DNA of 64,000 nucleotides from Microbulbifer hydrolyticus. GTDB taxonomy: Bacteria > Pseudomonadota > Gammaproteobacteria > Pseudomonadales > Cellvibrionaceae. The first letter of the stretch is position 1; each line of letters opens with the position of its first letter. Shown here one piece after another: positions 10,353 through 62,600 of this stretch. The stretch spans positions 248,001 to 312,000 of the forward strand of contig NZ_CP047491.1 in NCBI RefSeq assembly GCF_009931115.1, written 5' to 3'. The notes under the pieces are model-generated. The model did not search any database. It saw only the letters and a list, made by a program, of their open reading frames with translations, and was not told where the DNA came from. A program made the position numbers and the translations under genes.

Positions 10353-10412
10353 GGTGAAGCCTGAGAGTTGTTGAGTCTGAAATTCAAAAATTCTAAAAAG
10401 TGCGCACAGTAT

Positions 10413-10433: not shown

Positions 10434-10463
10434 GCCTCGTTTCCGGTGTGACCCAGTTGGCAA

Positions 10464-43139: not shown

Positions 43140-44583
43140 GCTCCTCAGTTGGTGTCCCGTTCTCGCTTACGACGGGCGTATAGGTTCGTATCTGGTAGGT
43201 AAGGGTCTGACCCGCGTAGGCGATTTGCAGCTCCGGTTGTGGCGGCGCCAGCGTCACCTCCCCACGCCCCTGTACACAGGGAACCGCATCGAAGATATCT
43301 TTCATCGTGTATCCAGGCATGGCTCGCACTAGGTGCTCGTGCAGCGTGCGATAGATATCCGGCGAATCTTCACCGAACGGAAAGCTTTCCATCGCCGCCA
43401 GTATGCGATCCATGTTGTTACGCCGCGCGATCTCCTCTTCGCTCAGGCCTCCGGACACCGCTACCAGCTTCGCCTCGGCAATATGCTCCTCGGCCTCCAA
43501 CCGCACTCGCAGCAGCTCGTCCAATAGCGCGGTGCCATCTTCCTCTGGCCAGCTGATTTTGCTGTTCTGGGATCGGTTGAAGCTCTTCAGAGTGCCCAGT
43601 ACGCGCACGGGTTTGAACACCTCATCGTCCGGGCGCAAGCGCCAGTCGCGCAGTTGCCCCGTCTGTCGCTCCTGCACGGCGCTGCGCAGAGCGTTGTAAA
43701 GGTCCTCGACGCGGTTGTACCGGCGTCGCTCGTCTTCCGCGAACTTGATGTAGGTATCGAGGCTTTTGGCGATATCCCCGATCTCCTGCGCATTGCTCAG
43801 GATATGCAACTGTACCCGGGTCAACCGGCTCACGTGCTCGGTCATCTTGCGCTGGCGAAAGCGGTCGATGATCTGCCGAACAAGTGCCATGGGCGCGTGG
43901 CTGCCATCCAGTTCGGTCACGTCGCGGTGGATGTCCAGCCGCTCATCCAGGAACTGGAGGGTAGGAGTGACATGGCGCTCGTGGATATGCAGGATCGACT
44001 TCAGTGCCTCCCGCATCTGGTCCGTCTGCTGCAGGTCGGTGAACGCATGCTCATCGACCTTACTTGCTAGCCGCTCCGCCTGGCCGCGCAGCGCGCGCAA
44101 CGCAATCCGCAGGCGCGAATCCACATGTTGCAGGGTGTAGTAGACCGCTTCCACCATCTCCTCGAACTGCGGTTCCCCAGGGGCCCACTCCACATGGAAG
44201 TTACTGACCTGCTTGTAGCACTGCTCAAGCTGGGCCATCAGCTGGTTCAGCTCCGCCGACGAAAGCTCCCGCATTCGTGTGTTGTCGAGGTGGCGCAGCA
44301 TCTCCAGCACGAAGTCCTGAAGCCGGAAGCGCCCGGAGCGGCTGTCCTGATAATTGAGTAGCCCGTTCTGTTCCAGGTTTTCCAGTGACAGGGTATCCAA
44401 CTGTTTCTGCTGGTCTTTCTTGTCGAGGTGCGCAGTGGATTTCACCAGCAACTGGTTGTAGTCGCTGATGGTGAATTCCATCGACGGGTTGTTCTGCTGG
44501 CGCTCGACCTTGTCCATCAGTGCAAAGAATAGGTTCTTGTGCTCAAGGATGGTGATCAGTGTGCGATCCGTTCTGACCGGCAT
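43126..44583 (-). CDS. jetA: Wadjet JetA-like (MukF-like kleisin) subunit
   Basis: 485 residues. Winged-helix start (ITILEHKNLFFALMDKVERQQNN, FTISDYNQLLVKSTAHLDKKDQQKQL) and long helical middle with many Glu/Arg residues (SKVDEHAFTDLQQTDQMREAL), the layout of MukF/JetA kleisins that bridge the SMC heads. The C-terminal 60 residues (RGEVTLAPPQPELQIAYAGQTLTYQIRTY) look like a second small domain. One base separates it from jetC. Confidence 0.78.
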   Translation of the reverse strand: MPVRTDRTLITILEHKNLFFALMDKVERQQNNPSMEFTISDYNQLLVKSTAHLDKKDQQKQLDTLSLENLEQNGLLNYQDSRSGRFRLQDFVLEMLRHLDNTRMRELSSAELNQLMAQLEQCYKQVSNFHVEWAPGEPQFEEMVEAVYYTLQHVDSRLRIALRALRGQAERLASKVDEHAFTDLQQTDQMREALKSILHIHERHVTPTLQFLDERLDIHRDVTELDGSHAPMALVRQIIDRFRQRKMTEHVSRLTRVQLHILSNAQEIGDIAKSLDTYIKFAEDERRRYNRVEDLYNALRSAVQERQTGQLRDWRLRPDDEVFKPVRVLGTLKSFNRSQNSKISWPEEDGTALLDELLRVRLEAEEHIAEAKLVAVSGGLSEEEIARRNNMDRILAAMESFPFGEDSPDIYRTLHEHLVRAMPGYTMKDIFDAVPCVQGRGEVTLAPPQPELQIAYAGQTLTYQIRTYTPVVSENGTPTEEHARG

Positions 44584-44584
44584 A

Positions 44585-47500: not shown

Positions 47501-47596
47501 GATCTCGACGTAGGCGGCGTTGCCAGAGTTCACCATGATGAGGGTTTTCAGCCGGTACTTGTCGCCATCGACTAGAGAGTGTTGCGCGTTATCCAT
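44585..47596 (-). CDS. jetC: Wadjet JetC-like SMC/MukB-type ATPase
   Basis: About 1003 residues. Predicted ATP-driven motor that extrudes loops on incoming plasmid DNA. The P-loop near residue 35 is SRNNEGKTSGLNALKLFL; the first Gly of the usual GxNGxGK is changed, as in MukB-like proteins. Coiled coils fill about 250-470 and 600-830. The signature SQSHGTNGMINAVLLSIL and Walker B with D-loop PVVFDEVGSLDEKNLPEL come near the end, followed by VLLVANPHNN. The Met of MDNAQHSL is used as start; it overlaps jetD by eight bases. Confidence 0.88.
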   Translation of the reverse strand: MDNAQHSLVDGDKYRLKTLIMVNSGNAAYVEIPLNETAALLSRNNEGKTSGLNALKLFLLPEVNFRNCEQKFEFKSGGEVYSGIKSFNYYFPAPNSFLILEAENPVGDFCVVLHRSKEELGYARIMIDKPYEAIRHLFWDIHSEANNGLGKPPEAMALSDVQQTLLQMHGEVFDDQERIRTAMYTRYTPGRRETRYCIMPTVQPPSGALLKSIKALLQLSFDIKGASGGNLPQAIANIIDSEIALTKKSVNIDLKQISEDRESLRRNAIQIQAIKNHSDDWQALNRAYHTFNTEKIKAHKRYWLLRASLEPMQEGLEPQLQELHGRKASLQRQLNGAKDSRNLANRKLSEVKGGLNLLAKNLATGQKNLQGAEAIIQQNQLMCESGDPQEVVDYLQGILRDEEEALRSMESKESATAELERRLGEKKTAQQEAAKLEALIADFGQCFLNHLDSHSATVLNSLNTDFRRLSITPMGSQAKAIQGFAELFTLNEAGQLVLGGEILPTAHVNPYDEESSRKEAENLLDAVRRTIGGVDKRISELHRIISANGPLSQEMLAEKKTEIVELRGEIALLQRLPGIQDDVQNRLVEQEALRAQQDEFEIELKYVEEHLGQLLAEQEEVTEALRALDDLRHAIKTTKQELNHAVRSLPELESSTRPASISAQLITDPGELSAHYQPLEQSLRAVIDAVQEAEHRFRVLAGAGIMDVPPEITHKPQLDDTEFQAIYEQIRSEFENLDRKERDHKSQIANHNHRTSIEMSMLESMGVAIENFQSRINETLEGIRISNLSGVSIRIQALQAFIELRKELQDYGRGTTELMSESFHRRLMDFSEKYLTSARGSTKLNLEKIITGVRFIYEIRGQKEDTSQSHGTNGMINAVLLSILMKKLVPEDVVFTLPVVFDEVGSLDEKNLPELRRVVEGSRMVLLVANPHNNGYIVQYIGRWHDIYTRKLSEGFAVGKCQAVHVIRHEALRGEVTLPSSTGENAAPEQSAAETVVTAEDEA

Positions 47597-48410
47597 GAAG
47601 GGGGTCCAGATAGGTTTCCTGCTCGAGCTTTTTGCCGGTGAGATACAGGCGTTGGAGTAGAGCGGTGAGTTCGGGATGTGCGCGTCCGGCACGGTGTATC
47701 GCAGTGCGCTCGTCCTGGCTCATGCTTGAGGTGGCGCGGGCGAGATAGGCGTCGATGTTGTCGGGCACCAGAAAGCGCGGCTGCAGGCCGGTATCCGCCA
47801 GCAGTGTTTTGATGCTGCCGTAGATCTTGATGCCGCCCGGGTCCAGGTCCAGGAGGGTGTGCACCGCCCGGTATCGGGTATACAGAGTGCGATTACAGGC
47901 TTTGGCCGCCGCCTGCCCCGCACCGAAGAGAAGGGTAATTTCAAGGGGTGCGGCAGATAGGCCGCAGCGTTCCACTAATAGGGCAATCGTTTCTTCGAAG
48001 CGGATGAAATTCTGCAGGTTTTCCACGATGACCAGGATGTCCCCGGCAGGTTCATCTTCGATCCAGCTTTGTCCATCCCGGCTGAAGGCGACGCGCGGCC
48101 TGTCCCAGCTGATATGTTGAATCATCAGCGCATTTCCCTCGACCCGCTCACTGTGGGACTTACCGCTATGGGATGCGCTTATGCGGTCGATGATGGGGGC
48201 GGGCGCCGGGAACTGGGATTCGATCTCCCGCAGCGACCGCTCATCAAGAACTTTAATAACGCTCTCGCCGGCGAATCGGGACTCGGGTTGCAGGCACTGC
48301 ATCAGATGTCCCGGCAATACGCCATTTCTGCCCATGGCGGTCAGGAACCGGCGCCAGTTGATGGGGGCGCCATCTCGTATTGCGCTGAAGTATTCGTGGG
48401 GTTTGGGCAT
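47589..48410 (-). CDS. jetD: Wadjet JetD-like TOPRIM nuclease, short form
   Basis: 273 residues, shorter than the roughly 400 residues common for JetD. The C-terminal TOPRIM-like core is visible: the acidic residue in DILVIVENLQNF, then LLFGAGQAAAKACNRTL and the DxD of HTLLDLDPGGIKIYGSI. JetD cuts the DNA loaded by the SMC complex. The N-terminal arm domain (DUF3322 type) seems reduced. It is the first gene of the operon and starts 213 bases from the divergent DUF2779 gene. Confidence 0.78.
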   Translation of the reverse strand: MPKPHEYFSAIRDGAPINWRRFLTAMGRNGVLPGHLMQCLQPESRFAGESVIKVLDERSLREIESQFPAPAPIIDRISASHSGKSHSERVEGNALMIQHISWDRPRVAFSRDGQSWIEDEPAGDILVIVENLQNFIRFEETIALLVERCGLSAAPLEITLLFGAGQAAAKACNRTLYTRYRAVHTLLDLDPGGIKIYGSIKTLLADTGLQPRFLVPDNIDAYLARATSSMSQDERTAIHRAGRAHPELTALLQRLYLTGKKLEQETYLDPLHG

Positions 48411-48623
48411 CAGGCTTTATTCTGCTGCGTGGGCACGATAACGGCGTTTCATCCTATAGCCGAATGAGCGTTGGCGCCAGTTTCGAGGGGTATGCCCACC
48501 CTGATCCCCTGATCCCTCGCACCAGTTCGGACGATCGCGGATTTCCACTACAGGGCATCGTAATCAGCTTCTATGTACATAAATTGGTGTAGGGTAATGG
48601 AACTGCCGGGAAAGGAAGACGTC
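48411..48623. promoter_or_regulatory. divergent promoter region, Wadjet and DUF2779
   Basis: A 213-base gap between jetD (leftward) and the DUF2779 nuclease (rightward). Transcription of both defence units must start here. No operator palindrome was seen. AAGGAAG just before 48624 is the ribosome site of the nuclease gene. Confidence 0.4.
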
Positions 48624-50606
48624 ATGGCTAAGAATTCTCTCCATCAGCAGATGCCGGTGCTGTTGACCAAGTCGCGCTTCAGGCGAGCCCTTGAATGCCC
48701 CACCAAGCTTTATTATGGCGAACAACCAAACTATGCCAACCAGAGCCTGGAAGATGACTTCCTCGCTGAGCTGGCCCGTGGCGGATTCCAGGTTGGGGCA
48801 CTAGCGAAGTGCTATTTCCCTAATGGGGAAGACCTGTCAGACCTGGATGCCGATGCCGCCCTGGTGCGCACAAAAGAATTATTACGCCAGGGAAAAGTCA
48901 CGATTTTTGAGGCCGCATTCCAGTATGACCAGCTACTGGTGCGTGTGGATATTCTCATCAAGGATAGTGACCGCTACCAGCTGATCGAAGTCAAGGCGAA
49001 AAGTTGGGAGCCGGCAAGCGATCGCTTTCTGAATAATAAAAGAACCGGAATCCTAAGGGAGTGGGAACCTTACGTCTGCGATGTTGCATTTCAGAGAGTG
49101 GTGCTTGAAAAAGCGCTGAACACCAACAACATCGAAAGCTATCTTATGCTGGCCAATAAGCAGGCCAGCGCCGCTACCGACGGGTTGAACAGCAAATTCC
49201 TGGTGGTAGGCGAGCAGCATAAGGTGGTGGTATCTCCCGACCTCACTGACGAAGACCTAGCCAATGAGCTGCTCATAAGAGTCAGTGTCAAAGAGCCGTT
49301 AGACTTTGTCCTGGCAAAAGGCGAATACCACGGACAGTCCTTCGAAGGCTACATTGCGGTCGCTGTTGATGCCCTGCAAAAGGGGGCGCGCTTGGCCGGG
49401 CGTATTGGTACGGTTTGCAAGAAATGCGAATTTCACTGTACCCCGCAAGACGACATCAATGGATTACAAAGTGGTTTTCGCGAGTGCTGGAAGGAGGCAC
49501 TGGGCTGGCAGGATAAGGACTTTGGAGATCCTTCGGTACTGGAAATTGCCAACTTCCGCAATGCCGATAAGCTCTTCGCCCAAGGCAAAGCCAAACTGAT
49601 AGATACCGAAGAGGCAGACATCAATCCCGCGCCAGACGGGAAACGAGGCCTTTCCAATAGCCAACGCCAGTGGCTGCAGATTACCAAGGTGCAGGAGGGA
49701 GACAGCAGCCCGGAAATCTGTATAGATGAACTGCGAGAAGAAATAAATCGCTGGACGTACCCACTGCACTTTATCGATTTCGAAACCATCACCGCCGCGC
49801 TTCCCTTCACTCGCGGTCGTCACCCCTACGAGGGCGTGGCCTTCCAGTTTTCACACCATGTGGTGCAGGAGGATGGCACTGTCGCACACGCGCACCAGTT
49901 CCTGGATACCACCCTGGGACATTTCCCCAGCTTCGACTTTATCCGCAAGCTCAAGGAAGCATTGGATAGTGACGACGGCACAATCTTTCGTTATTCAGCC
50001 CATGAAAACAGTATCCTCAACCTGATCCACCGCCAGCTGCGGGATAGCGGACTGTCGGATAAGGACGTCCACGAACTGTGCACGTTTATCGAGTCCATTT
50101 CCCATTCAACGAAAGGTAGTGAAAGAGAGTGGCGTGGACCGCGGGATATGGTCGATATGCTGGAATTGGTCAAGCGCTATGCCTACTACCCGGCGACCAA
50201 GGGTTCCAATTCCATCAAGTATGTACTGCCGGCCGTGCTGAGCGACTCTGCCTTTCTGCAGGAGAAATACGCCCAGCCAATCTATGGCGCGGCAGGTGGT
50301 ATTCCCAGTCACAACTTTACAGACTGGCAGTGGATACAGAAGCAAAACGGCCAAGTTCAGGATCCCTACCGCCTGCTGCCGCGCATGTTTGAAGGTATGC
50401 CGGAAAATCTTGATGAACTACTGTCGGAAAGCGACAGCCTGGCCAATGGTGGTGCGGCGCTGGCGGCATACGCAAAGATTCAGTCCACGGAGATGGGCGA
50501 TTATGAGCGCAAAGAGCTGCGGGCGGCGCTGTTGAAATACTGTGAGCTGGATACGCTGGCTATGGTGATGATTTTTGAAGCGTGGCAGGCAGCGGTGAGA
50601 AGCTAG
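48624..50606 (+). CDS. DUF2779 protein: Cas4/RecB-like nuclease fused to a DEDD exonuclease
   Basis: 660 residues. The N-terminal half has a PD-(D/E)xK core, VDILIKDSDRYQLIEVKAKSW (Asp, then Glu-x-Lys), and a late Cys cluster, VCKKCEFHC plus RECW, like the iron-sulphur Cas4/AddB nucleases. The C-terminal half (DUF2779) has the DnaQ-type acidic motifs HFIDFETITA, RYSAHENSIL and YCELDTLAMV. The ATG at 48624 follows AAGGAAG at proper spacing; an in-frame start 51 bases earlier has none. Found in defence islands; substrate unknown. Degraded relatives lie at 60540 and 61328. Confidence 0.85.
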   Translation: MAKNSLHQQMPVLLTKSRFRRALECPTKLYYGEQPNYANQSLEDDFLAELARGGFQVGALAKCYFPNGEDLSDLDADAALVRTKELLRQGKVTIFEAAFQYDQLLVRVDILIKDSDRYQLIEVKAKSWEPASDRFLNNKRTGILREWEPYVCDVAFQRVVLEKALNTNNIESYLMLANKQASAATDGLNSKFLVVGEQHKVVVSPDLTDEDLANELLIRVSVKEPLDFVLAKGEYHGQSFEGYIAVAVDALQKGARLAGRIGTVCKKCEFHCTPQDDINGLQSGFRECWKEALGWQDKDFGDPSVLEIANFRNADKLFAQGKAKLIDTEEADINPAPDGKRGLSNSQRQWLQITKVQEGDSSPEICIDELREEINRWTYPLHFIDFETITAALPFTRGRHPYEGVAFQFSHHVVQEDGTVAHAHQFLDTTLGHFPSFDFIRKLKEALDSDDGTIFRYSAHENSILNLIHRQLRDSGLSDKDVHELCTFIESISHSTKGSEREWRGPRDMVDMLELVKRYAYYPATKGSNSIKYVLPAVLSDSAFLQEKYAQPIYGAAGGIPSHNFTDWQWIQKQNGQVQDPYRLLPRMFEGMPENLDELLSESDSLANGGAALAAYAKIQSTEMGDYERKELRAALLKYCELDTLAMVMIFEAWQAAVRS

Positions 50607-50700
50607 ATCGCCATCTGAAATCCGGCTTTATTGCCCGTGCGGTTCCTAGTAATGTTCAGTATCCATAAGAAAAATTCAATGATATAGCGATTAGTAGCCG

Positions 50701-51492
50701 ATGATCGATAGCAGTATCTCTGGCCCCCTGTTTATCGGATGGGATGTTGGCGGTTGGAACTGCGACCGCAATGCCAATAGCCGTGACGCACTGGTGGTGC
50801 TGGACAGCGAGCGAAACATCCTAGGCCAGTCTTGGCGCGGTAATGTTCGCAGGTTGATCAATGAGGCCGCCAATACGCAGGAGTGGATAAAGGCTCTACT
50901 AGCTTGTTGTCAGATAGAGGCTTTCGGTAGCTCACCATCGGTAGTGTTGGCTATCGATACGCCGCTGGGTTTCTCGCAGGCCTTCCGGCAGCTGATTTCC
51001 GGTAAGGGAGCGGCTGGAACTATTGAGACATCCGCCGATAATCCCTACCTATTCCGTTACACCGAACGGATCCTATTCCAGCGGGGTTTGACGCCGCTTT
51101 CTCCGGTCAAAGACATGATCGGTAGCCAAGCAACCAAAGGCATGCATGCATTGGCGCGTTTTGCGCCCGAGAGTCCGGCCACGGGGCTCTGGACTGACGG
51201 CAGCAACCTTACTGCGCTCGAGGCTTATCCCGCTGCCTGTAAGCCTTCGGCACTAGTGCTTGAACTACTGAAGCCTTACCGCCATACGCCTGCTGCTAAC
51301 CAGGTTGATGCTTGGGAAACTACGGGGTTTGGTTATGGCATCAATCACGAGGACGAGCGCGATGCCTTGCTCTGCGCTCTGGTGGCATGGCTCTATCACT
51401 TCCAGCCAGATGACCTATTCCAGCCCGATGTAGCTACACCGTGTGGTGAAGGCTGGATATTCGTACCTCGCGATGCCTTGAGAGGTGGCTAG
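50701..51492 (+). CDS. DUF429-like RNase H-fold protein
   Basis: 263 residues. Motifs in the order of DUF429 predicted nucleases: FIGWDVGGWN near residue 12, VLAIDTPLGFSQAF near 82, LEAYPAACK near 180 and the C-terminal HEDERDALLCALVAWLYHF. The acidic residues in these four places could build an RNase H-type site. SPVKDMIGSQATKGMHAL is another conserved-looking block. 95 bases after DUF2779 and 53 before the next gene, all on the plus strand. Confidence 0.7.
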   Translation: MIDSSISGPLFIGWDVGGWNCDRNANSRDALVVLDSERNILGQSWRGNVRRLINEAANTQEWIKALLACCQIEAFGSSPSVVLAIDTPLGFSQAFRQLISGKGAAGTIETSADNPYLFRYTERILFQRGLTPLSPVKDMIGSQATKGMHALARFAPESPATGLWTDGSNLTALEAYPAACKPSALVLELLKPYRHTPAANQVDAWETTGFGYGINHEDERDALLCALVAWLYHFQPDDLFQPDVATPCGEGWIFVPRDALRGG

Positions 51493-51544
51493 AAAACAAC
51501 CAATTAAGACGGCACAAAAATAATAACAAGGACCTCAGTTACTC

Positions 51545-52921
51545 ATGGACCTGAACCAATTCCTTACTGAATACGATGACAGCCTCGGCGGTGACCTAAA
51601 CGTGGACCCTCTGGGGCTGCAGGTGATCTGGTCCGCCTTCGGTCAAGATATCTTCCGCTATCGCGTGAGTTCCATTTCCAATGATGTACGCAATTACACC
51701 CTTAACTTGTTTCACCACTGTCTGATCAAGGATCTGGTAGAGGATGAACAGCTGACACTCAGCCCGCAGCTGAGCAATAATTTCGAGCGCCTCGACACCC
51801 TAAACTTCAAAACAGCCTGTCTGATTTATCTCGAAAACCTGTTTACCTATTCGATGATTGCGCGCCAGGATGACGCAGATGTCGATACTGGCGGTGTCTT
51901 GGGTAGCGCCAAGGCCCGTAAACGCTGGGGGAACAAGAGCGAAGGAGGGGGTAATCCGTCACTTCTGTTTGGTGATACCGACAAGAGTTACATCCTCGTC
52001 CGGCAGCCATTGCTGGGGGTGAGCGGCCGTTACAAGACGCCGTTGGTACAGATGGGGTTCTTTGACAAGAACTACCACTACTCCCCCCAATCGGCGCCCC
52101 TGTGGAAACAGGCGCATACATTGATCAAGCAGGTCCTACCACTGAGCCTGCTGTACCGCGCGTTACGGGCCCATATGGAGGAGGTGCTATCCCAGCCAAG
52201 TAAGGCACCCCAGGTGGCCTTCAATCAGGTGCCTGCGCCGATCAAGTCCGGCTATGTGGAGGCCTTCAAGTCACCGGCCAGGGTGGGGAGCTATGCCCGA
52301 GAATTTTGGCTAGGGGTGACACACCTGGATCGAGGCGCCGCTGGCGCGCTCTACCGAGTGCTGGCATCAGCGATTGGCGGAAGTTCAAAGGTAAAACCAC
52401 AAACAATCTTCACCGAAGCCCAAATTGATTCGGCCTTGAGCGAGCAGGAGCGCCGCCAGATCGACCGCGTCCGCCAATTGGAGCCCTTTCTGGCTGAGCT
52501 GGACCTGCTGTTCACTCTGATGCTGGTCAACAAGCAGCAGACGCTCGACCAGGTTGCTGCTTTGTGGGCGAAATATGGGCGCGGCCCGGAAATTTTGCGG
52601 GACACCGCCACTGACCTGGAGGCTTTGTTGCCGCAGCTATCGGGTACTGGGAAACAGCGCCTGCAGCAGCTGCTGAAGCTTGCCTATCTGATAGATGCCG
52701 AGTCGCAAATGCGCCAGTTGCTGGCCTACCACAATGGCGTCATGCAGGACCGGGGCCAGTCACCCTGGCTGCGCCTCAGCGCCGATGGAATACTAAAGCT
52801 CGATGTGCGTTCGCGGCGTGAGCCCGACCCCGAGGATCGTCCGCGAGGGCACTGGGTCAATCACTACTACATTCCGCAGTTCCAAAACTTGTTGCAGGGT
52901 CTGCTGGGAGGTGCCGCATGA
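51545..52921 (+). CDS. uncharacterised protein of the PLD-helicase operon
   Basis: 458 residues, no signal peptide or membrane span. I do not recognise the family. GLQVIWSAFGQDIFRYRVSSISNDVRNYTLNLFHH is a distinctive N-terminal block and SKARKRW-type basic stretches follow. FLAELDLLFTLMLVNKQQTLDQVAALW is helical. It overlaps the PLD gene by four bases (ATGA), so the two are almost surely co-translated. This protein may give the system specificity or act as an adaptor. Confidence 0.7.
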   Translation: MDLNQFLTEYDDSLGGDLNVDPLGLQVIWSAFGQDIFRYRVSSISNDVRNYTLNLFHHCLIKDLVEDEQLTLSPQLSNNFERLDTLNFKTACLIYLENLFTYSMIARQDDADVDTGGVLGSAKARKRWGNKSEGGGNPSLLFGDTDKSYILVRQPLLGVSGRYKTPLVQMGFFDKNYHYSPQSAPLWKQAHTLIKQVLPLSLLYRALRAHMEEVLSQPSKAPQVAFNQVPAPIKSGYVEAFKSPARVGSYAREFWLGVTHLDRGAAGALYRVLASAIGGSSKVKPQTIFTEAQIDSALSEQERRQIDRVRQLEPFLAELDLLFTLMLVNKQQTLDQVAALWAKYGRGPEILRDTATDLEALLPQLSGTGKQRLQQLLKLAYLIDAESQMRQLLAYHNGVMQDRGQSPWLRLSADGILKLDVRSRREPDPEDRPRGHWVNHYYIPQFQNLLQGLLGGAA

Positions 52922-54840
52922 AGCTGATGCAGCGCCTGAAAAAGGAACTCAAGCAGCTCGGTCCCCTGAAGCGGGTATGGCTCACCAGCTTTAACATCAG
53001 CATTCCCTTCGTGGAAGGGCATATTCTCCCCGCCATCCTCGGCGAGGATCCGCCCAAAGACCGCATGGCCTATGAGGCGCTGCAGTTGGAGCTGAGCCAG
53101 CAGGGCATCGACTTTCGTGTCTTCTGCGATCGCCGTGCGCTGGAGGCCGATCAATTTAAACGTACAGCAATTCAGATTCACCCGGTAGAGGTGCGTGCAT
53201 TTGCCCAGCTGCTGGAGGGCATCACCGATCGCACACTGTTTCACCCCAAGGTGATCTATTTGGAAGATAAGGACGGCAAGGCAGTTCTCGGTGCCGGTAG
53301 TGCCAATCTCACCGTAAGCGGTTGGGGCCGCAATCAGGAGGTATTCGATTTTCGGAGGGTAAGCACCAAGGTGCAGCAACAGCAAATACAGCGCCTCTTC
53401 AATGGACTGGATCGCGCTTTGGATTTGCCTGAGCAGCCGCTGGAGCCTGGTGATGATACGGACTGGCAGTTTATGCACAGCTTCGAACCGGAGACGTTTC
53501 TATCCCGTCTTGGTGACGGGATCCCCCTCGAGCAGCTCACAGTCTGGTCGCCCTATTTGGCGGAGGACCTGCCGGCCTTTGTTGCGCGTCTGCAACAAAA
53601 GCTCGACAGCCCTGCCCTAAAGCTGGCGCTGGTGCCAGACAGGATTGAAGGGCACAAGATCCGCACTCCCTGGAGTGAGGAGCTGAGCGAGCTGCTGAAA
53701 ACGGGCGCTCTGACATTCCTTGATTACCCAGCGCCGCCCCCAGACAACATCGAGTTCACCCACGCCAAACTCTGGTTGGCAGAAACGGCGACCCAGGCAA
53801 CGCTCGCCATCGGCTCCTGGAACTTCACACACCCAGGCACCAGCAGCTTCACCGATGCAAACGAAGAGGGCGGCGGTATCAATATCGAGGCCGGCATTCT
53901 GCACCGGAGCAAGACCGTTCCCGCCATCGCTGGTCCAGTATTAACAGTGGGCGCACAGGACTTCGCCAGTGAGATCGAACTCGAGGACAGCGAGCTGGAT
54001 GTAGAGTCAGCGCCGCCTTTCGACCTAACGGTTACTTTCAACTGGCAGACCAACAATTACACCATCCGCGGCCAGTGGTATGTGGGGGAGCCTGAGACCG
54101 GCTATCAACTGAAGTTGCCAGGGTTGAGAGCCCGCCAAGAGCTGATTTGGGCTGAAGACAGGAGACTGCAACCTCTTAACCTCGCGATAGAGGATGCCTC
54201 TGCACTGTTGGCGCGGCATTTTTATCAGATACTGTCCTCGGACGGCGAAACTATTCGTGGCCTGATTATCGAAACCGGCCAGCGCTACCGGCGCGCCCAG
54301 AGCTTCGAGACCCTGAAAGATCTTTTCGATAGCCTGGTTACCAATAGCGACCCAGACACTAATGGTAAATTGGTGCTGCACCCGAGCCTTCGCTCCGACG
54401 ACGAGCCGGACGAGGCACTACCCCTAGCGACAGACGGTGATAGTAGCGAGGAGTTGACCTACTTCCGCCTGTTCTACGCCATGAAGCAGTTTCGCGCACG
54501 ACTGGAGACCTGCACCGAGGCAGAGCAGCTGGTCAAGTGGCTGCGGGTCTACCCAGGTTGCCTGCAAGAGCTCGTCGAAAAGGTCCGGATGCGGCTAGAT
54601 GACAAACCCGCAGCGGTGATCGACTGGTTCCTGGCGCAAGAGGTAAATACGACCTGTTGCTTCGCCCGTGAAAGAATGATGTTTCTCGATGAGGGGCAAG
54701 GAGCGACGCATCTCACCACCGAGCAGTGGCGGGCTCTGGAAGTGCCAGTGCCGCCGCTGCCTTCCACAAACCGAGAGCAGCGTAAATTCATTGACTACAT
54801 TGCCAGCACGAGTGGCTATCAGGAGGTGAGCCATGTCTAG
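52918..54840 (+). CDS. phospholipase-D-fold nuclease-like protein
   Basis: 640 residues. Two half-sites of the HKD type: LFHPKVIYLEDKDGKAVLGAGSANLT (about 111-136) and FTHAKLWLAETATQATLAIGSWNFTH (about 278-302). Each has HxK followed by E at the usual Asp place, then GS/GSxN. The two motifs would form one active site, as in PLD-family nucleases used in defence (for example DISARM DrmC or Mokosh MkoB). The C-terminal third is helical. It overlaps the helicase gene by eight bases. Confidence 0.8.
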   Translation: MKLMQRLKKELKQLGPLKRVWLTSFNISIPFVEGHILPAILGEDPPKDRMAYEALQLELSQQGIDFRVFCDRRALEADQFKRTAIQIHPVEVRAFAQLLEGITDRTLFHPKVIYLEDKDGKAVLGAGSANLTVSGWGRNQEVFDFRRVSTKVQQQQIQRLFNGLDRALDLPEQPLEPGDDTDWQFMHSFEPETFLSRLGDGIPLEQLTVWSPYLAEDLPAFVARLQQKLDSPALKLALVPDRIEGHKIRTPWSEELSELLKTGALTFLDYPAPPPDNIEFTHAKLWLAETATQATLAIGSWNFTHPGTSSFTDANEEGGGINIEAGILHRSKTVPAIAGPVLTVGAQDFASEIELEDSELDVESAPPFDLTVTFNWQTNNYTIRGQWYVGEPETGYQLKLPGLRARQELIWAEDRRLQPLNLAIEDASALLARHFYQILSSDGETIRGLIIETGQRYRRAQSFETLKDLFDSLVTNSDPDTNGKLVLHPSLRSDDEPDEALPLATDGDSSEELTYFRLFYAMKQFRARLETCTEAEQLVKWLRVYPGCLQELVEKVRMRLDDKPAAVIDWFLAQEVNTTCCFARERMMFLDEGQGATHLTTEQWRALEVPVPPLPSTNREQRKFIDYIASTSGYQEVSHV

Positions 54841-57800
54841 CAGAGAATGGGGTGCACTGCGGCCGGAGGAAGTCTCCCAGTGGATCACCTTTGAGCGGGG
54901 CAATGCTGATTGGGGCTATGAGAGTGCTAACAAGACCTCCATGGCCGCCAAACAGGCTGAGGGCGTGGCGGGCTTGTGGAACCGCCTGGCCCAATACGAT
55001 CTTGCGTTACTCGCCGATGAGGTGGGAATGGGCAAGACAATGCAGGCACTGGGGGTGATGGCGCTGCTGTGGAAGCAGAACCCGGATGCGAAGGTTCTGG
55101 TAATGGCGCCGAATCGCGACATCTGCACCCACTGGATACGAGAGTACCGCGGCTTCCTGCGCGAGCATTACAAGGAAGTTGACCATCTGGTGCGTAACCT
55201 GGCCGACGGTGGCCCCGTACACGAGCCACAGCTGTGCAAGCGCCTCCCAGACCTGCAGGAGGCGGTGAGCAGTGGCACCGGACATTTCTACCTGACCACT
55301 ATCCATGCCCTAAGTGGATTGCTGCCGAGCGATTTAAAGGACAGTGACGACAAGCAGCGGCTGGCCGAGCGCACGGCGCGCGAAATTAACCGCGAAATCC
55401 TGCGTGCGCTCGATGGTGCAGGCTTCGACTTAATAATTATCGACGAGGCGCACTACTTCCGCAAAGCCGGAGGTGGCTCCCAGCGAGTCGGCGCCGCGCG
55501 AGGATTCTTTGGCTCCGGAAACAAGCGCTTGGCTAAGAGAGCGTTGCTCCTGACCGCGACACCTAGCCACTCTTCACTCGCGGATGTGCCGGCCATCTTT
55601 AGCTACTTTACAGATTTCGAACGTGACGTAGATCAGCAGGACGCGCCAGAGCTATTGCGAAAACACGCGGTACGCCGTCTGCGCATGATGGAGGGAGCCG
55701 CCGATGATTCAGGCCAGCGGCGTTTCCATAACAAGTACAGCTATCGTCACGAGCGGGCGCTTCCCGCTGATTTCGGGGATGACTTGAATGCTGAGCTGTT
55801 CTTTGCCTTGTACCAGAAGAAACTGGTTGAAGACGCAGCAGTCTCCGGGAATAACCGTCGATTCATGTACGGATATCTGGAGGGGTTCGAGTCAGTCGGG
55901 GTGACCGATCCCACAGATAATCAGGATTCCGAAAACAATGATGATCAGGTGGCAGCGGACTCCTATACCACAGCGCCGGATACTCAGGTACTGCAAGCGT
56001 TAACCCGCGAATACCATCGCCGCTTTTCGAAGTATCCGGCCCATCCCAAGTATGACAAGCTCCTGCAGCAGTGCGTGCCGCAAGAGCTTTTTTCAGCTGG
56101 GCCGGATCTGCACGAATACAAGCATCTGATTTTCGTCCGGCGAATTCCCTCGGTGCGTGAAATCACCCAGCGGGTCAACGAGGCTTACGACGAACTGCTG
56201 GCAAAGAAAATAGTGAAGGCCAGGGGGCTGCCTAAACCAGCTACAGTCTTAAAGGATTGGCGCGCATCGGGTTGGTCGCGCCGTTTCTTCAGCGATGTAG
56301 TAGCGCCCTCAGACAGATTGACTGCCGAGGAGAGAGCACAGCTGAGTGCTGATGACGAAGATATCTTCGAGCAGAAGGTTACCGATGAAGAAAAGTTGTC
56401 GTCGAGAATCGCAGACCTGTTTGTGGTCAAGAGTGGGCGACTGGCTCGTACCGATGCCGCGAATGTAAGGCTGCGCTTCCGAAAGCCCGAGAGTCTATTC
56501 AGCCTCTTCATGGAGCCTGCCAGCGACTACCTCAACGGGAGATACAATACGTTCCAGCGTAAGAAGGTGGGCAAGCGGGAACGGGATAGCTTCAGTGATG
56601 CGGCCCTGGCAACCCGGTTGCAGTCACATGGTCGGTTAACCAGCGATAGTGAAGCAGGCCATGTTGCTGGATCAGGGCAGCAAACCTATCAGTCGCCCCT
56701 CCCCACAGCCTGGGGACTAATGTTTGAACTGCTCCCCGCAGCGGACCAAGCCCTTCTTGCACGGTGGCGGGCACAAGATCCCGGTATCTTGGAGAACCTC
56801 GGCAACTACTTAAAAGCGGGCTTCCTATATGCGAGCCCGGTGATGGTGGAGCTTTATTGCTGGTTCACTCAGTTCGATCCCAAGAACAACAGCAGCAACG
56901 TCCAGGTGCGGTATCGGGCCTTTATCAAGCTGGCAAAGCGCGAGCTTCCCAATTCATTGATGTTTCAGTACTTCGTCAGTGCGATCAGAACCTTCGAGTC
57001 ACTCTGTGAGAAAATCACCGATCACCGCTTTGCCGACTGGGAAAAGCCTTGGAGCGAATTGACTAGTTTGCAGAACCCTGCCTGGTTCGCTAGTGGCGAA
57101 ACGAGTAATCGCCAGCGCCTGATTCTCGGCTTTAACAGCCCCTTCTACCCCAATGTCTTGGTTGCAACTTCAGTTTTTCAGGAGGGGGTTAATCTCCACC
57201 TCCAATGTCGAAAGGTTCACCACTACGGAATTGCCTGGACCCCGGGGGACAATGAACAGCGTGTCGGTCGGGTGGACCGCTTGTTCGGATGTGTGAACCA
57301 CCGTTTGCAACAGCAGGAGAACACAGAGCTCGCGATTCACTACCCCTATCTAAACCGATCATTCGATCAGGAGCAGGTAGCGTCCTTTATCCGCATGAAG
57401 CACGATGTGGAAGGTAAGATGGATGCCTGCAGACATCACGATACCGACCGTCAGATAGACTTAGCGAACGCCGTCGAGGGATGGGAGGACTTTTTACGAA
57501 GGCCTGACCAGGGCAATACGTTTGCCGACCCTTACCCGGCCCACCTGGATCCAGCTCAATGCCCGGCTTTCGATTACCTGCCGGTCCAATCCGCCAGCAC
57601 CGAAGAGCTGACAAATTACCTGCGTGGCCACTTACATGAAATATCCCGTCTTCACGAGCATGACTTTTATCGCTTGGAGCGTAGCGAGCAGCATCCCGCC
57701 GCTCAGTTTTTGTTAGAGGCCACACTGCCCCAAAGTCAGAGGCGGCAACCGATCGTTGCCGAGCTGCGCTACTCGTCAGAACTTTCGGCGCTTGTTTCGG

Positions 57801-58528
57801 GCACTGTGTACTACCTGTCACTTATCTCACCGCTAGCTACCCGTGCAGCTTTGAATGCCAATCACCAGGAGGGCCTGGCCCGTGCCGCGCGCAGATTCAA
57901 AGCGCAGCGTGAAGAATTTCCATTGGTCAAGCTGGCGCTAGACAAGGACAAAGCTAATAGCCACTTCTACCTAACGGCAAGAGCCGATCTACCACTATTT
58001 GCACTGGACGATGGCCACAAAATGTTGTCACGACAAGAGATTGAGCAGGCGTACCACCAGCTCTTTGAGTTCGCAGACCGCATGGAGATTCGCCTTTTCG
58101 CCCATGAGCAAGACCTGCACAAGGACGACCTTGAGCTTGCACTAAGTGAGGACGAGAAAGTACTTCCCGCAGTGGAAGACGAGTTTATGCCCACCGTCCG
58201 GCTGCGCCGTGGTTGGTGTCGCCAGCAGACACCTTTTGGTGCCACTGGCCTAAAGGAAGAGTATCTGACCCGTAGTGACTTCCACGCAATTCGTGCATTA
58301 CGGTTCGAAGGAAGGGAATCCGTGCCAGACAATCTGGCGGTATTATCTCTTAACAACAGTGTACCCCTACTGCAGTTTTACCCCCGAGGAAACCATGTCG
58401 TAGTGCAGCTCGCCTTTCCCCATGGGGATATCCAGGAAAGTGAACAAAAGCTGCTAATACGCTGGATGGAGCATGTTTCGAACAATAGGGTCACGCAATC
58501 AACCGATGGGGTGCTGGAACCAGCATAA
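54833..58528 (+). CDS. SNF2/DEAD-type helicase of the PLD operon
   Basis: 1231 residues. ATPase motif I is LLADEVGMGKTMQALGVMAL (about 61-80). Motif II is LIIIDEAHYF (DEAH), motif III LLLTATPSHSS. The second RecA lobe holds VLVATSVFQEGVNLHLQCRKVHHY and the arginine-finger motif EQRVGRVDRLFG. The layout resembles SNF2-like DrmD-type defence helicases, though long insertions and a C-terminal region of about 300 residues are unassigned. Preceded by GGAGGTGAG. Likely moves along DNA or remodels it for the PLD partner. Confidence 0.85.
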   Translation: MSSREWGALRPEEVSQWITFERGNADWGYESANKTSMAAKQAEGVAGLWNRLAQYDLALLADEVGMGKTMQALGVMALLWKQNPDAKVLVMAPNRDICTHWIREYRGFLREHYKEVDHLVRNLADGGPVHEPQLCKRLPDLQEAVSSGTGHFYLTTIHALSGLLPSDLKDSDDKQRLAERTAREINREILRALDGAGFDLIIIDEAHYFRKAGGGSQRVGAARGFFGSGNKRLAKRALLLTATPSHSSLADVPAIFSYFTDFERDVDQQDAPELLRKHAVRRLRMMEGAADDSGQRRFHNKYSYRHERALPADFGDDLNAELFFALYQKKLVEDAAVSGNNRRFMYGYLEGFESVGVTDPTDNQDSENNDDQVAADSYTTAPDTQVLQALTREYHRRFSKYPAHPKYDKLLQQCVPQELFSAGPDLHEYKHLIFVRRIPSVREITQRVNEAYDELLAKKIVKARGLPKPATVLKDWRASGWSRRFFSDVVAPSDRLTAEERAQLSADDEDIFEQKVTDEEKLSSRIADLFVVKSGRLARTDAANVRLRFRKPESLFSLFMEPASDYLNGRYNTFQRKKVGKRERDSFSDAALATRLQSHGRLTSDSEAGHVAGSGQQTYQSPLPTAWGLMFELLPAADQALLARWRAQDPGILENLGNYLKAGFLYASPVMVELYCWFTQFDPKNNSSNVQVRYRAFIKLAKRELPNSLMFQYFVSAIRTFESLCEKITDHRFADWEKPWSELTSLQNPAWFASGETSNRQRLILGFNSPFYPNVLVATSVFQEGVNLHLQCRKVHHYGIAWTPGDNEQRVGRVDRLFGCVNHRLQQQENTELAIHYPYLNRSFDQEQVASFIRMKHDVEGKMDACRHHDTDRQIDLANAVEGWEDFLRRPDQGNTFADPYPAHLDPAQCPAFDYLPVQSASTEELTNYLRGHLHEISRLHEHDFYRLERSEQHPAAQFLLEATLPQSQRRQPIVAELRYSSELSALVSGTVYYLSLISPLATRAALNANHQEGLARAARRFKAQREEFPLVKLALDKDKANSHFYLTARADLPLFALDDGHKMLSRQEIEQAYHQLFEFADRMEIRLFAHEQDLHKDDLELALSEDEKVLPAVEDEFMPTVRLRRGWCRQQTPFGATGLKEEYLTRSDFHAIRALRFEGRESVPDNLAVLSLNNSVPLLQFYPRGNHVVVQLAFPHGDIQESEQKLLIRWMEHVSNNRVTQSTDGVLEPA

Positions 58529-58657
58529 GGCAATGCTAATGCCAGTTTCAGGCTATTCTGCCTGATAGTTCTGACACCCAGAGCCAAAAATACAAACTTG
58601 CATTTTCTAGAGCCACCGTATGCTGGACTCGAAGCCAACTAAACGGAGGGTCCGAAT

Positions 58658-59275: not shown

Positions 59276-60442
59276 TCACCCCCCCAGCGGGGGCTTCGGT
59301 TCACTGCGCGGACAGTCTTTTGTCCAGTTGCGCGTTGCCCTCCGGGCTTGCCTGAACTCCGACTGGGTCATCCCGGCTTTAAGCAAGGTGCCCTTCAATT
59401 CGTAACCCCGTACCTCCTTGTCATGCGGATTCGGAAATTTCACTTTCTCTCCGTTGTCGATTTTGTAATATTCATGGTCTGACCGGGGCTCTTTTTCACC
59501 CCCGAGGTATCGCTCGATGAAATGCCGAAACTCCTTGAGCTGCGGCCCCTGAAAAGGCTGAATTCGCTCTGCGTAACCCGTTGTCTTCAAAACGTATATA
59601 GGACATTTCTGATGACCGACCGCAGGATGACGCGCGTACACCGGCCGAATGCTGGGGCCAATCTCCGCACTACCGCCTCTCGCTATGAGCGGCTTTGCGG
59701 TGAGGGCATCCAGGCCATTTACGACAGCCGCTGCTAACCAACCTTCCCTTTTCGCTCGTTCTCGAGGGTTAAAAGTGAAATCGCTATAAGGCGGTGGACT
59801 TTCCTGAAATAAAGTTTTGATCAGTCGGCCCGCCCTGCTGCCATCACTTAACTTTCGAGATCGCAGTCGCGAGTAAGCATAGTGATTCGCAAGGCTTTCT
59901 TCGTAATCGTAGGGGGTTAAACAAACAATGCGGCGACGATCCAGATAATACTCGTAGCGCTTGATTTGATTACAGGTAGGCAATACTTCCTGCCCAAGCG
60001 CCCACACATCTATCCAGAAGTGATAGCGCTCGTGTGCAACAAGGGTATCGATCGCCAGTTTACGCAACTCATCCTGCGGAAGACCTGCCGCCGCTACATA
60101 TTCTGCTTCAATCGCGCCAATACCCGCGTCAATCAGAAAAATTCCCCATCTGCCTCGAAAGGGCGGCCGATCTCGAAAACGAAAGGACTTATAGAACGCC
60201 AGAACATCAATACCACTCTCCCGGTATGCCTTACGTCCAGCTTCGATATCTTCTTCAGCCAATGCTCCATCGGGAAAAGGTGAGGACTCAGTATTGATTT
60301 CAAAGATTTCTCCCTCAATATCTGCGCCGCCAAGGGGAAAAGTTGTAGTCTCCAGATCGTCCGGCAGGGGCGGGCGCTTTGAATCCTCCTTCAATTCCTT
60401 GAGCCAAGGCTCCACAACTTCCGCAAAATCAGTACTCGCCAT
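59276..60442 (-). CDS. zincin-like protease with C-terminal HicA-like domain
   Basis: 388 residues. TLVAHERYHFWIDVWALG has a HExxH zinc motif (137-141), and YEESLANHYAYSRL 45 residues later supplies a possible third ligand Glu. The C-terminal 75 residues, DHEYYKIDNGEKVKFPNP and ELKGTLLKAGMTQSEF, look like HicA toxins (dsRBD fold, one His). It is directly followed by the hsdR start, so it probably belonged to a type I restriction operon. A protease-toxin fusion is the simplest reading, but neither activity is proven. AGAGG precedes the ATG by ten bases. Confidence 0.65.
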   Translation of the reverse strand: MASTDFAEVVEPWLKELKEDSKRPPLPDDLETTTFPLGGADIEGEIFEINTESSPFPDGALAEEDIEAGRKAYRESGIDVLAFYKSFRFRDRPPFRGRWGIFLIDAGIGAIEAEYVAAAGLPQDELRKLAIDTLVAHERYHFWIDVWALGQEVLPTCNQIKRYEYYLDRRRIVCLTPYDYEESLANHYAYSRLRSRKLSDGSRAGRLIKTLFQESPPPYSDFTFNPRERAKREGWLAAAVVNGLDALTAKPLIARGGSAEIGPSIRPVYARHPAVGHQKCPIYVLKTTGYAERIQPFQGPQLKEFRHFIERYLGGEKEPRSDHEYYKIDNGEKVKFPNPHDKEVRGYELKGTLLKAGMTQSEFRQARRATRNWTKDCPRSEPKPPLGG

Positions 60443-60539
60443 CTAGCTATCGCCTCTCTCTGGCATGAAGCTATACATCTTCTAAAGAACTTCCCGTCGT
60501 AGCTGGCCGATCAGCTTCAGTAATGCCTTGAGGGTGGTA

Positions 60540-60715
60540 AGGGCAGACGGCCAGATTCAGGAACACTACCCCATTTTTACCCCGCATGTTTGAATATATG
60601 CCGGAAATCATCTATGAACTACTGTCGGAAAGCAGCAGTCTAGCTAATGGCGGTGCGGTTCTGGCTGCATACGGAAAGATTCACCCTACGGACATGGATG
60701 ATTATGAGCGAGGAG
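60540..60715 (+). pseudogene. 3' fragment of a second DUF2779 gene
   Basis: About 175 bases match the DUF2779 gene from 50350 on: GGCCAGATTCAGGA, then MFEYMPEIIYELLSESSSLANG and AAYGKIHPTDMDDYER compared with MFEGMPENLDELLSESDSLANG and AAYAKIQSTEMGDYER. The match is lost before the final DEDD motif. No start or upstream part is present. It shows that this second island once had a relative of the gene at 48624. Confidence 0.8.
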
Positions 60716-60754
60716 CTACCCCGCAACTACGAAGACTTCTAAAAAGAGGTATCG

Positions 60755-60910
60755 TGTGCCAAAGGTCTGATCAGTCCAAGCGCAGGAAGTAGAGCCCCGA
60801 GTTCAAGCGTGAGGCCGACGAGTAGACTTGCCATCTAGGCGTGACTAGCCGGAAAAAGGCTCTGGAACTCAGTATGAATCCCGATTCTCTCCCGCTGGCG
60901 CCGAGAGGCC
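60755..60910 (+). mobile_element. IS3-type orfA remnant
   Basis: SDQSKRRK, stop, SPEFKREADE matches the usual KRRKYSPEFKREAVEL start of IS3-family OrfA apart from the nonsense codon. VTSRKKALELSMNPDSL after a second stop fits the HTH of the same protein. Only about 50 codons remain. Confidence 0.6.
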
Positions 60911-61025
60911 AATGATAGCGCTGCTTAAGCGCGCGGAAACTGGCTGCCGAATGCTAGGGGGTTGGTTACTTACGCAAAAATCGGGTAATGCCATATTGAC
61001 ATCCAGTTATTAAGGAGGGCGGGCA

Positions 61026-61316
61026 ATGCAGCACCAGCGCTATTTCATTGCGTGCGAACAAGTTAAGTGGAAGTTCCAATGCCCACAGCATTGGCAAGAT
61101 TTATCCAAAACCGATAAAGAGAGTATTCGCTATTGCAGCGACTGTCGGAGAAATGTGCACCTCGCTCATAGCGCCTCAGAGTTAAATGACCTGGCGCGTC
61201 AGGGAGCTTGCGTGGCTTGGCCTGGAAATCCTGATGATGAGGCAGAAAAGCAAGGTTATATGGTTATCGGGGAGGTAGATGGCGGCTCTCCTTTTTCACT
61301 AGAGAATGCCAAATGA
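61026..61316 (+). CDS. small zinc-ribbon-like protein
   Basis: 96 residues with a strong AAGGAGGG before the start. The block FQCPQHWQDLSKT, then RYCSDCRRNVHLAHSASEL and GACVAW, recurs in small proteins of unknown function with four Cys that may bind zinc. Its position between decayed sequences and the WYL gene tells little about its role. Confidence 0.65.
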   Translation: MQHQRYFIACEQVKWKFQCPQHWQDLSKTDKESIRYCSDCRRNVHLAHSASELNDLARQGACVAWPGNPDDEAEKQGYMVIGEVDGGSPFSLENAK

Positions 61317-61327
61317 ATGTGGGTCGG

Positions 61328-61386
61328 CTGCCGGAAAAAGAAGGCACTATGCCCACGTATTATCTCCATCCGCAGATGCCGGTAAT
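61328..61386 (+). pseudogene. 5' fragment of a DUF2779 gene
   Basis: This 59-base stretch matches 48602-48660, the ribosome site and first codons of the DUF2779 gene: CTGCCGG, AAAAGAAGG, ATG and CTCCATCCGCAGATGCCGGT align with CTGCCGG, AAAGGAAG, ATG and CTCCATCAGCAGATGCCGGT. It lies after, not before, the 3' fragment at 60540, so both cannot be parts of one undisturbed gene. Confidence 0.7.
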
Positions 61387-62600
61387 GTGCCACTACAACT
61401 TAAATGCTTAGCCTGCACGAGGCTCGCGTATTGGTTGCGAATATCTTGCGTCAAGTCTGCCAGAGGGTCAACCTGCTCATGGCCGAATGCCGGCACTGCC
61501 CGCACCGCCTTGAGTGCCGCCCCAAGGCCCAGTAGCCAGGTCTTGAATTCATAGTTGTACCAGAGCTTATGGATACGGAGTAGCACCCGCGGCACGGCTC
61601 CATGCTGTAGAAATTTATGTTCCGTTAGGTGTTTTTTCTCTTCTTCGGGATGAAACCGCATTTCTGATAGATGAATCGCAACGGGGCCTTCTACTTCCAG
61701 TTCAAGGCGCTCCAGTTCGCCCCAGTTGCCGGGGATACGTGGCTTGACCGCCGGATTGGTATAGTCTATGAATTTTTTACTTTTATAAAGGGTGAAATCA
61801 TCAACGCTGCCTGCGATATCAATATCGATACTGAAGCGATGCAGGGCCATCTCTTCATAGATGCCAGCGTGCTCTTCGGTGGTACATGCGAGGTAACTGA
61901 CCTGCTCACGGCGTACTAGCCGCACCGGAAAATAGATGGTCTTGAGACCATCCTGATAACGTGCCGGGAAACCCATTCCTTCCTCAATTGCCCGCAATGC
62001 CACTTGCTCGTGTAGGCGTAATCGATGAGTATCGGTATTCGGGAATATCCCCGGATAACGGGCAGAGTATCGTAACCTCTTAACGAGATTATCTATTTTC
62101 TGGTTGGTAGTGGTGGATTTGATTAGGCTAACCAAAGCCTTGCGTTCATTCTTTGGGAGAAAGAACTCGTTGAACTTTCCTACCAGTAGCAAGTGAAGGC
62201 GCAGGCTGCGGGGGTGCAATATCTCGGGTTCCTCAGTTAACTTGTAGCGGCGTACTTTTCCCGGTCGATGTAGACCTTTTTCATTTTTATTCTTTTTACT
62301 GCCGACTTCGTTTTTTTTCTGTTCTGCCTTTTGTTCCTTGGAGATCGGCTCAATTTCTTCGTCGTATTCACCCCAGTCATTTACACACACGACGCAGCCA
62401 TGCTCGCTATTGTACTGCCGCAGAAAGGCCTCGGCTTGATCCTTAAGAAGGCGGCGGCTGCTAACACTGGAGAGGCTTGCAGGAGACATGATCTCTTCAA
62501 GGGCTTTACTGAGTCTAAGTCCTTTTGTGCTATCAGCCCTGAAAAGCATCCACAGTAACTTGTACTTGGCCTCCTCATCGAATTCCGCTCTCTTGTCCAT
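61347..62600 (-). CDS. WYL-domain transcriptional regulator
   Basis: 417 residues. An N-terminal helix-turn-helix region (EAKYKLLWMLFRADSTKGLRLSKAL) and a highly charged Lys-rich insert (about 105-130) precede the WYL core at about 210-245 (HEQVALRAIEEGMGFPARY, YFPVRLVRREQVSYLACT). A C-terminal WCX-like part follows (VAIHLSEMRFHPEEEKK, VPRVLLRIHKLWYNYEFKTWLLG). This layout is that of BrxR/CapW-type regulators of defence genes. The last 12-15 residues are encoded antisense over the DUF2779 fragment at 61328, so the natural C-terminus may be lost. A perfect inverted repeat lies between it and the divergent operon. Confidence 0.82.
   Translation of the reverse strand: MDKRAEFDEEAKYKLLWMLFRADSTKGLRLSKALEEIMSPASLSSVSSRRLLKDQAEAFLRQYNSEHGCVVCVNDWGEYDEEIEPISKEQKAEQKKNEVGSKKNKNEKGLHRPGKVRRYKLTEEPEILHPRSLRLHLLLVGKFNEFFLPKNERKALVSLIKSTTTNQKIDNLVKRLRYSARYPGIFPNTDTHRLRLHEQVALRAIEEGMGFPARYQDGLKTIYFPVRLVRREQVSYLACTTEEHAGIYEEMALHRFSIDIDIAGSVDDFTLYKSKKFIDYTNPAVKPRIPGNWGELERLELEVEGPVAIHLSEMRFHPEEEKKHLTEHKFLQHGAVPRVLLRIHKLWYNYEFKTWLLGLGAALKAVRAVPAFGHEQVDPLADLTQDIRNQYASLVQAKHLSCSGTLPASADGDNTWA

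Follow-up and report, generated by a model that had tools for sequence, protein, structure and literature searches.

A conserved three-gene operon of Microbulbifer hydrolyticus is a copy of PDC-M27, a catalogued defence candidate

INTRODUCTION

The described systems closest to the operon treated here are those in which a protein of the phospholipase D (PLD) fold accompanies a helicase. PLD enzymes form a covalent histidine intermediate during catalysis and are independent of metal. Mokosh consists of the kinase-helicase MkoA and the PLD protein MkoB, or of a fused PLD-helicase; DISARM includes the SNF2-type helicase DrmD and the PLD protein DrmC, and Dpd the helicase DpdE and the PLD protein DpdK. 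Zac, as listed in PADLOC, is a DUF6361-PLD-helicase system in which ZacA corresponds to the Pfam family DUF6361. PADLOC also holds entries named PDC, whose source is reportedly a 2024 preprint by Payne and others. In the excerpted text of PMC12988326 (2026), PDCs are described as putative defence candidates from a guilt-by-embedding approach, most of which, within a core set, are said still to await validation.

The window, that is, the whole stretch of DNA analysed here, comprises 64,000 nucleotides of the M. hydrolyticus genome, a single contig of 4.21 Mb. The original prediction saw in it a possible undescribed defence operon of four genes, encoding a DUF429-like protein, a 458-residue protein that was not recognised, a PLD nuclease and a SNF2-type helicase.

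RESULTS

Identity and layout of the genes

When the open reading frames (ORFs) were read again, the four genes agreed exactly with the prediction in coordinates, lengths and overlaps, the latter being 4 nt between M27A and M27B (52918-52921) and 8 nt between M27B and M27C (54833-54840) (Table 1). The last three proteins matched the PDC-M27A, PDC-M27B and PDC-M27C profiles of PADLOC-DB 2.0.0 over nearly their full length; with all three profiles matched by adjacent genes in the order A-B-C, the trio belongs to PDC-M27. The 263-aa product of the preceding gene matched the PDC-S44 profile of the same database (377.7 bits, residues 9-261), and its proposed DUF429-like character found no Pfam support at E ≤ 0.1, a threshold at which the 458-aa protein gave no match either. 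Pfam recognised PLDc_2 in M27B (E 2.3e-10) and ResIII, SNF2-rel_dom and Helicase_C in M27C. The operon is thus not undescribed: its trio is one catalogued candidate and its fourth gene matches another. Because PDC-M27 is a candidate entry for which no validation was found, the match of all three proteins to a named system speaks against novelty only in a weakened form. The name PDC-M27 was not met in a literature text search, and PDC-S44 occurs once in PMC13366656, among the papers listed.

Promoter-like sites numbered 2, compared to 4.2 in shuffled sequences, and terminator-like sites 11, compared to 8.2 (standard deviation, 3.1), neither of which is a signal. Rfam yielded zero matches between positions 40000 and 64000 at gathering thresholds.

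Table 1. Features of the PDC-M27 locus in the window
Feature	Position	Strand	Description
16.0-kb cassette (Wadjet-like genes + DUF2779 + S44 + M27)	42553-58536	.	blastn against G036
DUF2779 gene	48573-50606	+	Occasional trio companion; Pfam PF11074, 74.8 bits
PDC-S44 candidate gene	50701-51492	+	263 aa; neighbour, outside the conserved trio
M27A	51545-52921	+	458 aa; PADLOC PDC-M27A, 592 bits; all-alpha AlphaFold2 model
M27B	52918-54840	+	640 aa; PADLOC PDC-M27B, 767 bits; Pfam PLDc_2; two-HKD PLD fold plus C-terminal region
HPK motif 1 of M27B (H109-K111)	53242-53250	+	Alignment, 28 rows
HAK motif 2 of M27B (H282-K284)	53761-53769	+	Alignment, 28 rows
M27C	54833-58528	+	1231 aa; PADLOC PDC-M27C, 1544 bits; SNF2/RapA-type superfamily-2 helicase
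M27C motif I DEVGMGKT (residues 62-69)	55016-55039	+	
M27C motif II DEAH (residues 204-207)	55442-55453	+	
M27C motif VI EQRVGRVDR (residues 808-816)	57254-57280	+	
Optional C-terminal extension of M27C	57548-58525	+	From about residue 906; 3/25 rows

The trio is conserved as a unit

Scanning of genomes with M27A patterns retrieved 26 loci, a number that is an underestimate. Homologues of A, B and C stood in this order in 21 of them, one of which (L035) has an interrupted A. The other five comprise three loci cut by a contig end (L017, L019 and L031), one in which A and B are both broken, near a contig end (L033), and one with a fragment of A only (L036). Three plasmid records were also matched, and the two that were fetched (Rhodoferax and Vibrio) both carried the three genes in order. 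The hosts are, by the titles of their records, alpha-, beta- and gammaproteobacteria and one planctomycete metagenome-assembled genome. When starts were estimated from alignments with the window proteins, a 4-nt overlap of A with B was seen in 20 of 27 loci, and one of 4 to 14 nt between B and C in all 24 measurable loci. In L005 and L006 the deposited M27C starts lie 28 and 37 nt past the end of M27B, so that the B-C overlap in these two rests on our choice of start.

The distance matrices of the three proteins were strongly correlated (0.965 for A-B, 0.982 for A-C and 0.975 for B-C) among 18 members, seven others having been left out as near-duplicates or broken, and none of 2000 permutations reached these values. 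The expectation that the trio is kept together in unrelated genomes was therefore borne out by gene order and by distance correlation, co-occurrence being strong. The window trio is a copy of a three-gene module that is inherited as one unit.

Its distribution is patchy. Among 58 related genomes two, counting that of the window, had M27C, and M27A was present in 1 of 369 genomes of the class sample, which is again that of the window. No relatives of M27A were found in phages and viral contigs, and a query with positions 51545-55544 gave no DNA match in Escherichia coli.

Some of the loci are irregular. In L035 (Zoogloea; 8518-10894) M27A is split by an insert with a 268-aa ORF, for which neither PADLOC at 1e-10 nor Pfam at 1e-5 gave a match. 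Two Pseudomonas loci have a short ORF immediately downstream of the trio (L018:16149-16484 and L025:16149-16427); it weakly resembles M27C from residue 754 onwards (24-29 bits) and is perhaps the remnant of a second helicase copy.

M27B is modelled as a Tdp1-like two-HKD protein

In an alignment of 28 rows, H109, K111, S128, N130 and E141 of the first half of M27B were present in all, and H282, K284, S300, N302 and E324 of the second half in 27, the remaining row having a gap. The glutamate that ends the HxK(x4)E of motif 1 (E116) was E in 22 rows and Q in 6, and its counterpart in motif 2 (E289) was aligned to a gap in 20 of the 28. Of the two HxK(x4)E motifs predicted, both HxK pairs thus stand; the glutamate of the second is not a family feature and that of the first varies between E and Q, the conserved acidic residues being E141 and E324.

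The AlphaFold2 model of M27B (pLDDT 83.6, pTM 0.85) had tyrosyl-DNA phosphodiesterase 1 (Tdp1) as its top Foldseek match (E 1.9e-10, probability 1.00, TM-score 0.33 by query and 0.47 by target), and Tdp1 structures made up 46 of the 50 matches listed. Over roughly 400 aligned columns the two proteins share the fold of a single chain with two HKD motifs, but they are only about 10-14% identical and M27B has an extra C-terminal region. Since Foldseek gave Tdp1 only modest TM-scores (0.31-0.37 by query length), the term Tdp1-like may mean no more than two HKD domains in one chain. M27B thus models as a Tdp1-like two-HKD phosphodiesterase, and it is probably a nuclease.

M27C is a SNF2-type helicase with a predicted insert

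The prediction that helicase motifs I, II, III and VI are intact was confirmed, all of them being found in M27C, with motif III reading LTATP (residues 240-244). Motifs I, II, III, V and VI were nearly invariant in 25 aligned rows; the lysine of motif I, the DEAH box and the three arginines of motif VI were identical in all 25, near-duplicates among them. Motifs IV and V are 350 residues apart. The Pfam Helicase_C model, which we take to span both motifs, has 110 positions and was aligned in M27C only from position 50 on. From this difference in length we infer that the second RecA domain carries a large insert. As a control for the spacing a SNF2 protein of the same genome was used, in which the patterns missed motif V.

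The C-terminal extension of M27C (about 320 residues) was present in 3 of 25 rows, namely the window, its sister species (L008) and L032. One PADLOC M27C profile of 1217 positions spans the extension, and another of 892 positions matches residues 1-906 only. No plasmid relative of residues 921-1231 was found by tblastn.

M27A is predicted to be all-helical

The AlphaFold2 model of M27A (pLDDT 86.0, pTM 0.81) is confident and almost all-helical. No sequence relative was found in the PDB at E 1, and Foldseek at E 0.001 matched the model to nothing in PDB or BFVD. The protein is probably a sensor or adaptor. SspF was considered as a relative, 2 of 25 M27A members matching it (best E 7.1e-4), but the SspF profile weakly matches many unrelated places in these genomes, and the domain words sought were not met in the excerpted text of the Ssp paper (PMC8092258); this reading was dropped.

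Genomic neighbourhood

To describe the flanks, 100 proteins of at least 180 aa were taken from 155 candidates, nearest first, within 4.2 kb of the trio; 22 of the 28 loci were chosen, six near-duplicate or degraded ones being left out, and 21 contributed proteins. The control consisted of 124 of the 189 proteins found in 15 stretches that lie on the trio's contigs but far from it, and their residues add up to almost the same total (48,846 versus 48,855). At 1e-10 the flank proteins matched 299 PADLOC families, versus 18 for the control proteins. These counts refer to families, not genes; a single protein may hit numerous related profiles, which inflates them, and the control does not extend to the two plasmid loci. 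The contrast is still large, and it places the trio among defence genes. Among the 25 of the 299 flank families that were listed, profiles of type I methyltransferases (matched by up to 5 proteins) and of specificity subunits (by 4) ranked highest. Four of the 28 loci was the most in which any neighbour family occurred.

The original prediction had counted the S44 gene with the operon. No S44 match was obtained in any of the 19 trio-bearing genomes searched, a search without positive control, and the plasmid collection gave one weak match. A DUF2779 homologue lies 5' of the trio in L005, L035 and L008 (the sister species, G036) as well; being found in few loci, it is an occasional companion. 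In L005 (9322-12971) and L035 (4617-8413), related proteins of 699 and 707 aa and the DUF2779 protein occur together upstream of the trio; the 699-aa protein is annotated as ATP-binding in Rhodoferax (L005), where a WYL-domain protein also lies between.

By blastn the cassette matched another species of the genus (G036) with 91.5% and 94% identity, and no match extended past either edge in 72 kb compared. From the Wadjet-like genes through M27C, the sequence thus has the look of a single cassette of 16.0 kb that was transmitted whole. No direct repeat of at least 9 bases was found between the 400-bp stretches around both edges. In the window as in L008 and L087, the cassette stops at gene ends on both sides.

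The Wadjet-like neighbour (42582-48410, minus strand) is divergent: its JetD-like 273-aa protein is the only one with a PADLOC match at 1e-3 (E 5.6e-6), its 185-aa protein is the only one over a Pfam cut-off (MksE), and its 1035- and 485-aa proteins matched no PADLOC profile at 1e-3. At this threshold the 46 window ORFs other than the operon gave nothing except JetD, in one ORF, and PrimPol, in one ORF and weakly (E 5.5e-5). Downstream of the cassette (59276-62600, minus strand), two ORFs of 388 and 417 aa had no Pfam or NCBIfam match over cut-off.

Comparison with DISARM, Dpd and Mokosh

M27C is related to DrmD and M27B distantly to DrmC, but the scores are far below the NCBIfam cut-offs (69.6 bits versus 610 for DrmD and 18.1 versus 133 for DrmC). 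The predicted absence of DrmA, DrmB and the methyltransferase was confirmed among the other 46 window ORFs (PADLOC, 1e-3). DISARM was therefore rejected as a home for the operon. Similarly, M27C and M27B distantly resemble DpdE and DpdK, but with 68.4 bits versus a cut-off of 500 and 17.7 versus 100, respectively; no further Dpd component was found among the other 46 window ORFs scanned, and Dpd, with partial likeness only, was also set aside. As for the Mokosh architecture, M27C showed no kinase domain (Pfam, 0.1) and no PLD fusion; its PADLOC comparison covers the best 25 of 31 matches.

Comparison with Zac

Zac resembles PDC-M27 in its gene order, a protein of unrecognised type followed by a PLD protein and a helicase, and in the overlap of its genes at both junctions, found in 7 of 11 annotated plasmid copies. 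A profile comparison of ZacB with M27B gave E 2.3e-7 over 299 columns. ZacC is the best PADLOC match of M27C outside its own family, and M27C is likewise that of the 2 ZacC proteins scanned. In 3 of 5 ZacC proteins the pattern found both motifs IV and V, at a spacing of 359-364 residues versus 350 in M27C. Judged by these profile relationships, M27B is homologous to ZacB and M27C to ZacC. The matches of single proteins to the Zac profiles are partial (34.8 bits for M27B and 92.1 for M27C, with best stretches of 54 and 56 residues), and the single-sequence evidence for B and ZacB is one-way because M27B was not matched at 0.01 by either of the 2 ZacB proteins scanned.

For the first gene the comparison is suggestive only. 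No family match to ZacA was obtained at E ≤ 1 from any of 25 M27A members, nor did the window M27A match DUF6361 in Pfam at 0.1. An hhalign comparison of M27A with ZacA was not significant (E 0.072, probability 0.8%), crossed controls being little worse (E 0.17 and 0.23), and in a test of our own a reversed profile came close to the true one (19.7 versus 22.0). M27A may at most be a remote relative of DUF6361/ZacA. Zac itself was rejected as the home of the operon, ZacA/DUF6361 having no match and the ZacB and ZacC profiles being matched only in part. Scans of viral contigs found no DUF6361, and a literature search returned no paper pairing Zac with PADLOC and none naming DUF6361. In three rhizobial plasmids (L060, L062 and L070), a pair of PD-(D/E)XK nuclease and UvrD helicase genes precedes Zac.

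DISCUSSION

The operon is real, conserved and of defence type, and it is already catalogued as PDC-M27 rather than being a new system. What had been read from the letters, a conserved defence-associated module that is not DISARM, holds as far as tested; the word undescribed has to be given up, and the S44 gene does not belong to the unit. We consider it probable that the trio, as a copy of PDC-M27, which with Zac would make up two branches of a wider kind of system, acts as one anti-phage or anti-mobile-DNA complex of a translocase (C), a phosphodiesterase (B) and an adaptor or sensor (A). We infer complex formation, a DNA substrate, nuclease activity and an anti-phage effect. M27C would be an ATP-driven double-strand DNA translocase, the motor that carries or feeds M27B; M27B would cut DNA, or process a 3' end, without metal and by way of a covalent histidine intermediate; and the all-helical M27A would set when or where the nuclease is unleashed. 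The target would be invading DNA, recognised by its structure, an end or a replication intermediate rather than by a modification mark. The trio has no modification enzyme or methyltransferase as a constant partner, so target choice is probably by structure or ends.

The same lack of a self-mark enzyme as a fixed companion, with N6_Mtase matched by 4 of the 100 flank proteins scanned (among the 25 of 135 families listed) and no family in more than four of 28 loci, would also suit abortive infection, in which M27A senses infection, the helicase-PLD pair destroys host and phage DNA and the cell dies, as many modules of a sensor plus a promiscuous nuclease are known to do. However, SNF2-type translocases are commoner in systems that hit invading DNA directly, as the likeness to DISARM DrmD, DpdE and BrxH illustrates, and no toxin-like component was recognised in the operon, so that we regard this outcome as unlikely.

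It is less likely still that M27B is a true analogue of tyrosyl-DNA phosphodiesterase, clearing away protein adducts or blocked 3' ends with the help of the helicase, be it in defence, against phage terminal proteins, or in general repair. The predominance of Tdp1 among the structural matches listed (46 of 50) favours such a function, and so does the lack of a conserved Asp after the HxK pairs of M27B, a residue that Tdp1 is not known to conserve in this position either. A housekeeping repair operon would nevertheless be spread more broadly than one that lies in a defence neighbourhood and was found in 2 of 58 related genomes for M27C and in 1 of 369 for M27A, the window's own included in both.

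That positions 48573-58528 (DUF2779, S44 and M27A-C) form a single five-gene system is very improbable, for although the five genes lie on one strand, with S44 ending 52 nt before M27A, and occur together in G036, with DUF2779 likewise 5' of M27A-C in L005 and L035, S44 was without match in all 19 trio-bearing genomes (again with no positive control), DUF2779 is near the trio outside the genus only in L005 and L035 of 28 loci, and PADLOC names S44 and M27 separately.

Returning to the trio as an anti-phage or anti-mobile-DNA complex, a wider relationship can be put forward tentatively, with rather more doubt than confidence. PDC-M27 and Zac might each be a branch of an unrecognised superfamily of restriction machines that consist of three genes and work independently of modification. 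In this superfamily M27A and DUF6361 would be the same divergent sensor, a Tdp1-like pseudodimeric PLD nuclease the blade, and a SNF2 translocase with a large insert in its second RecA domain the motor.

To the catalogue entry the present analysis adds the test of the trio as a unit, the exclusion of S44, the Tdp1-like model of M27B and the link to Zac. PDC-M27, until now an entry in a candidate list, thereby gains an anatomy: a Tdp1-like probable nuclease, a SNF2-type motor with an unusual predicted insert and an all-alpha subunit. With the catalytic residues named and the operon compact, a direct test is simple, and since PDC-M27 is tied to Zac, the mechanism of one may inform both.
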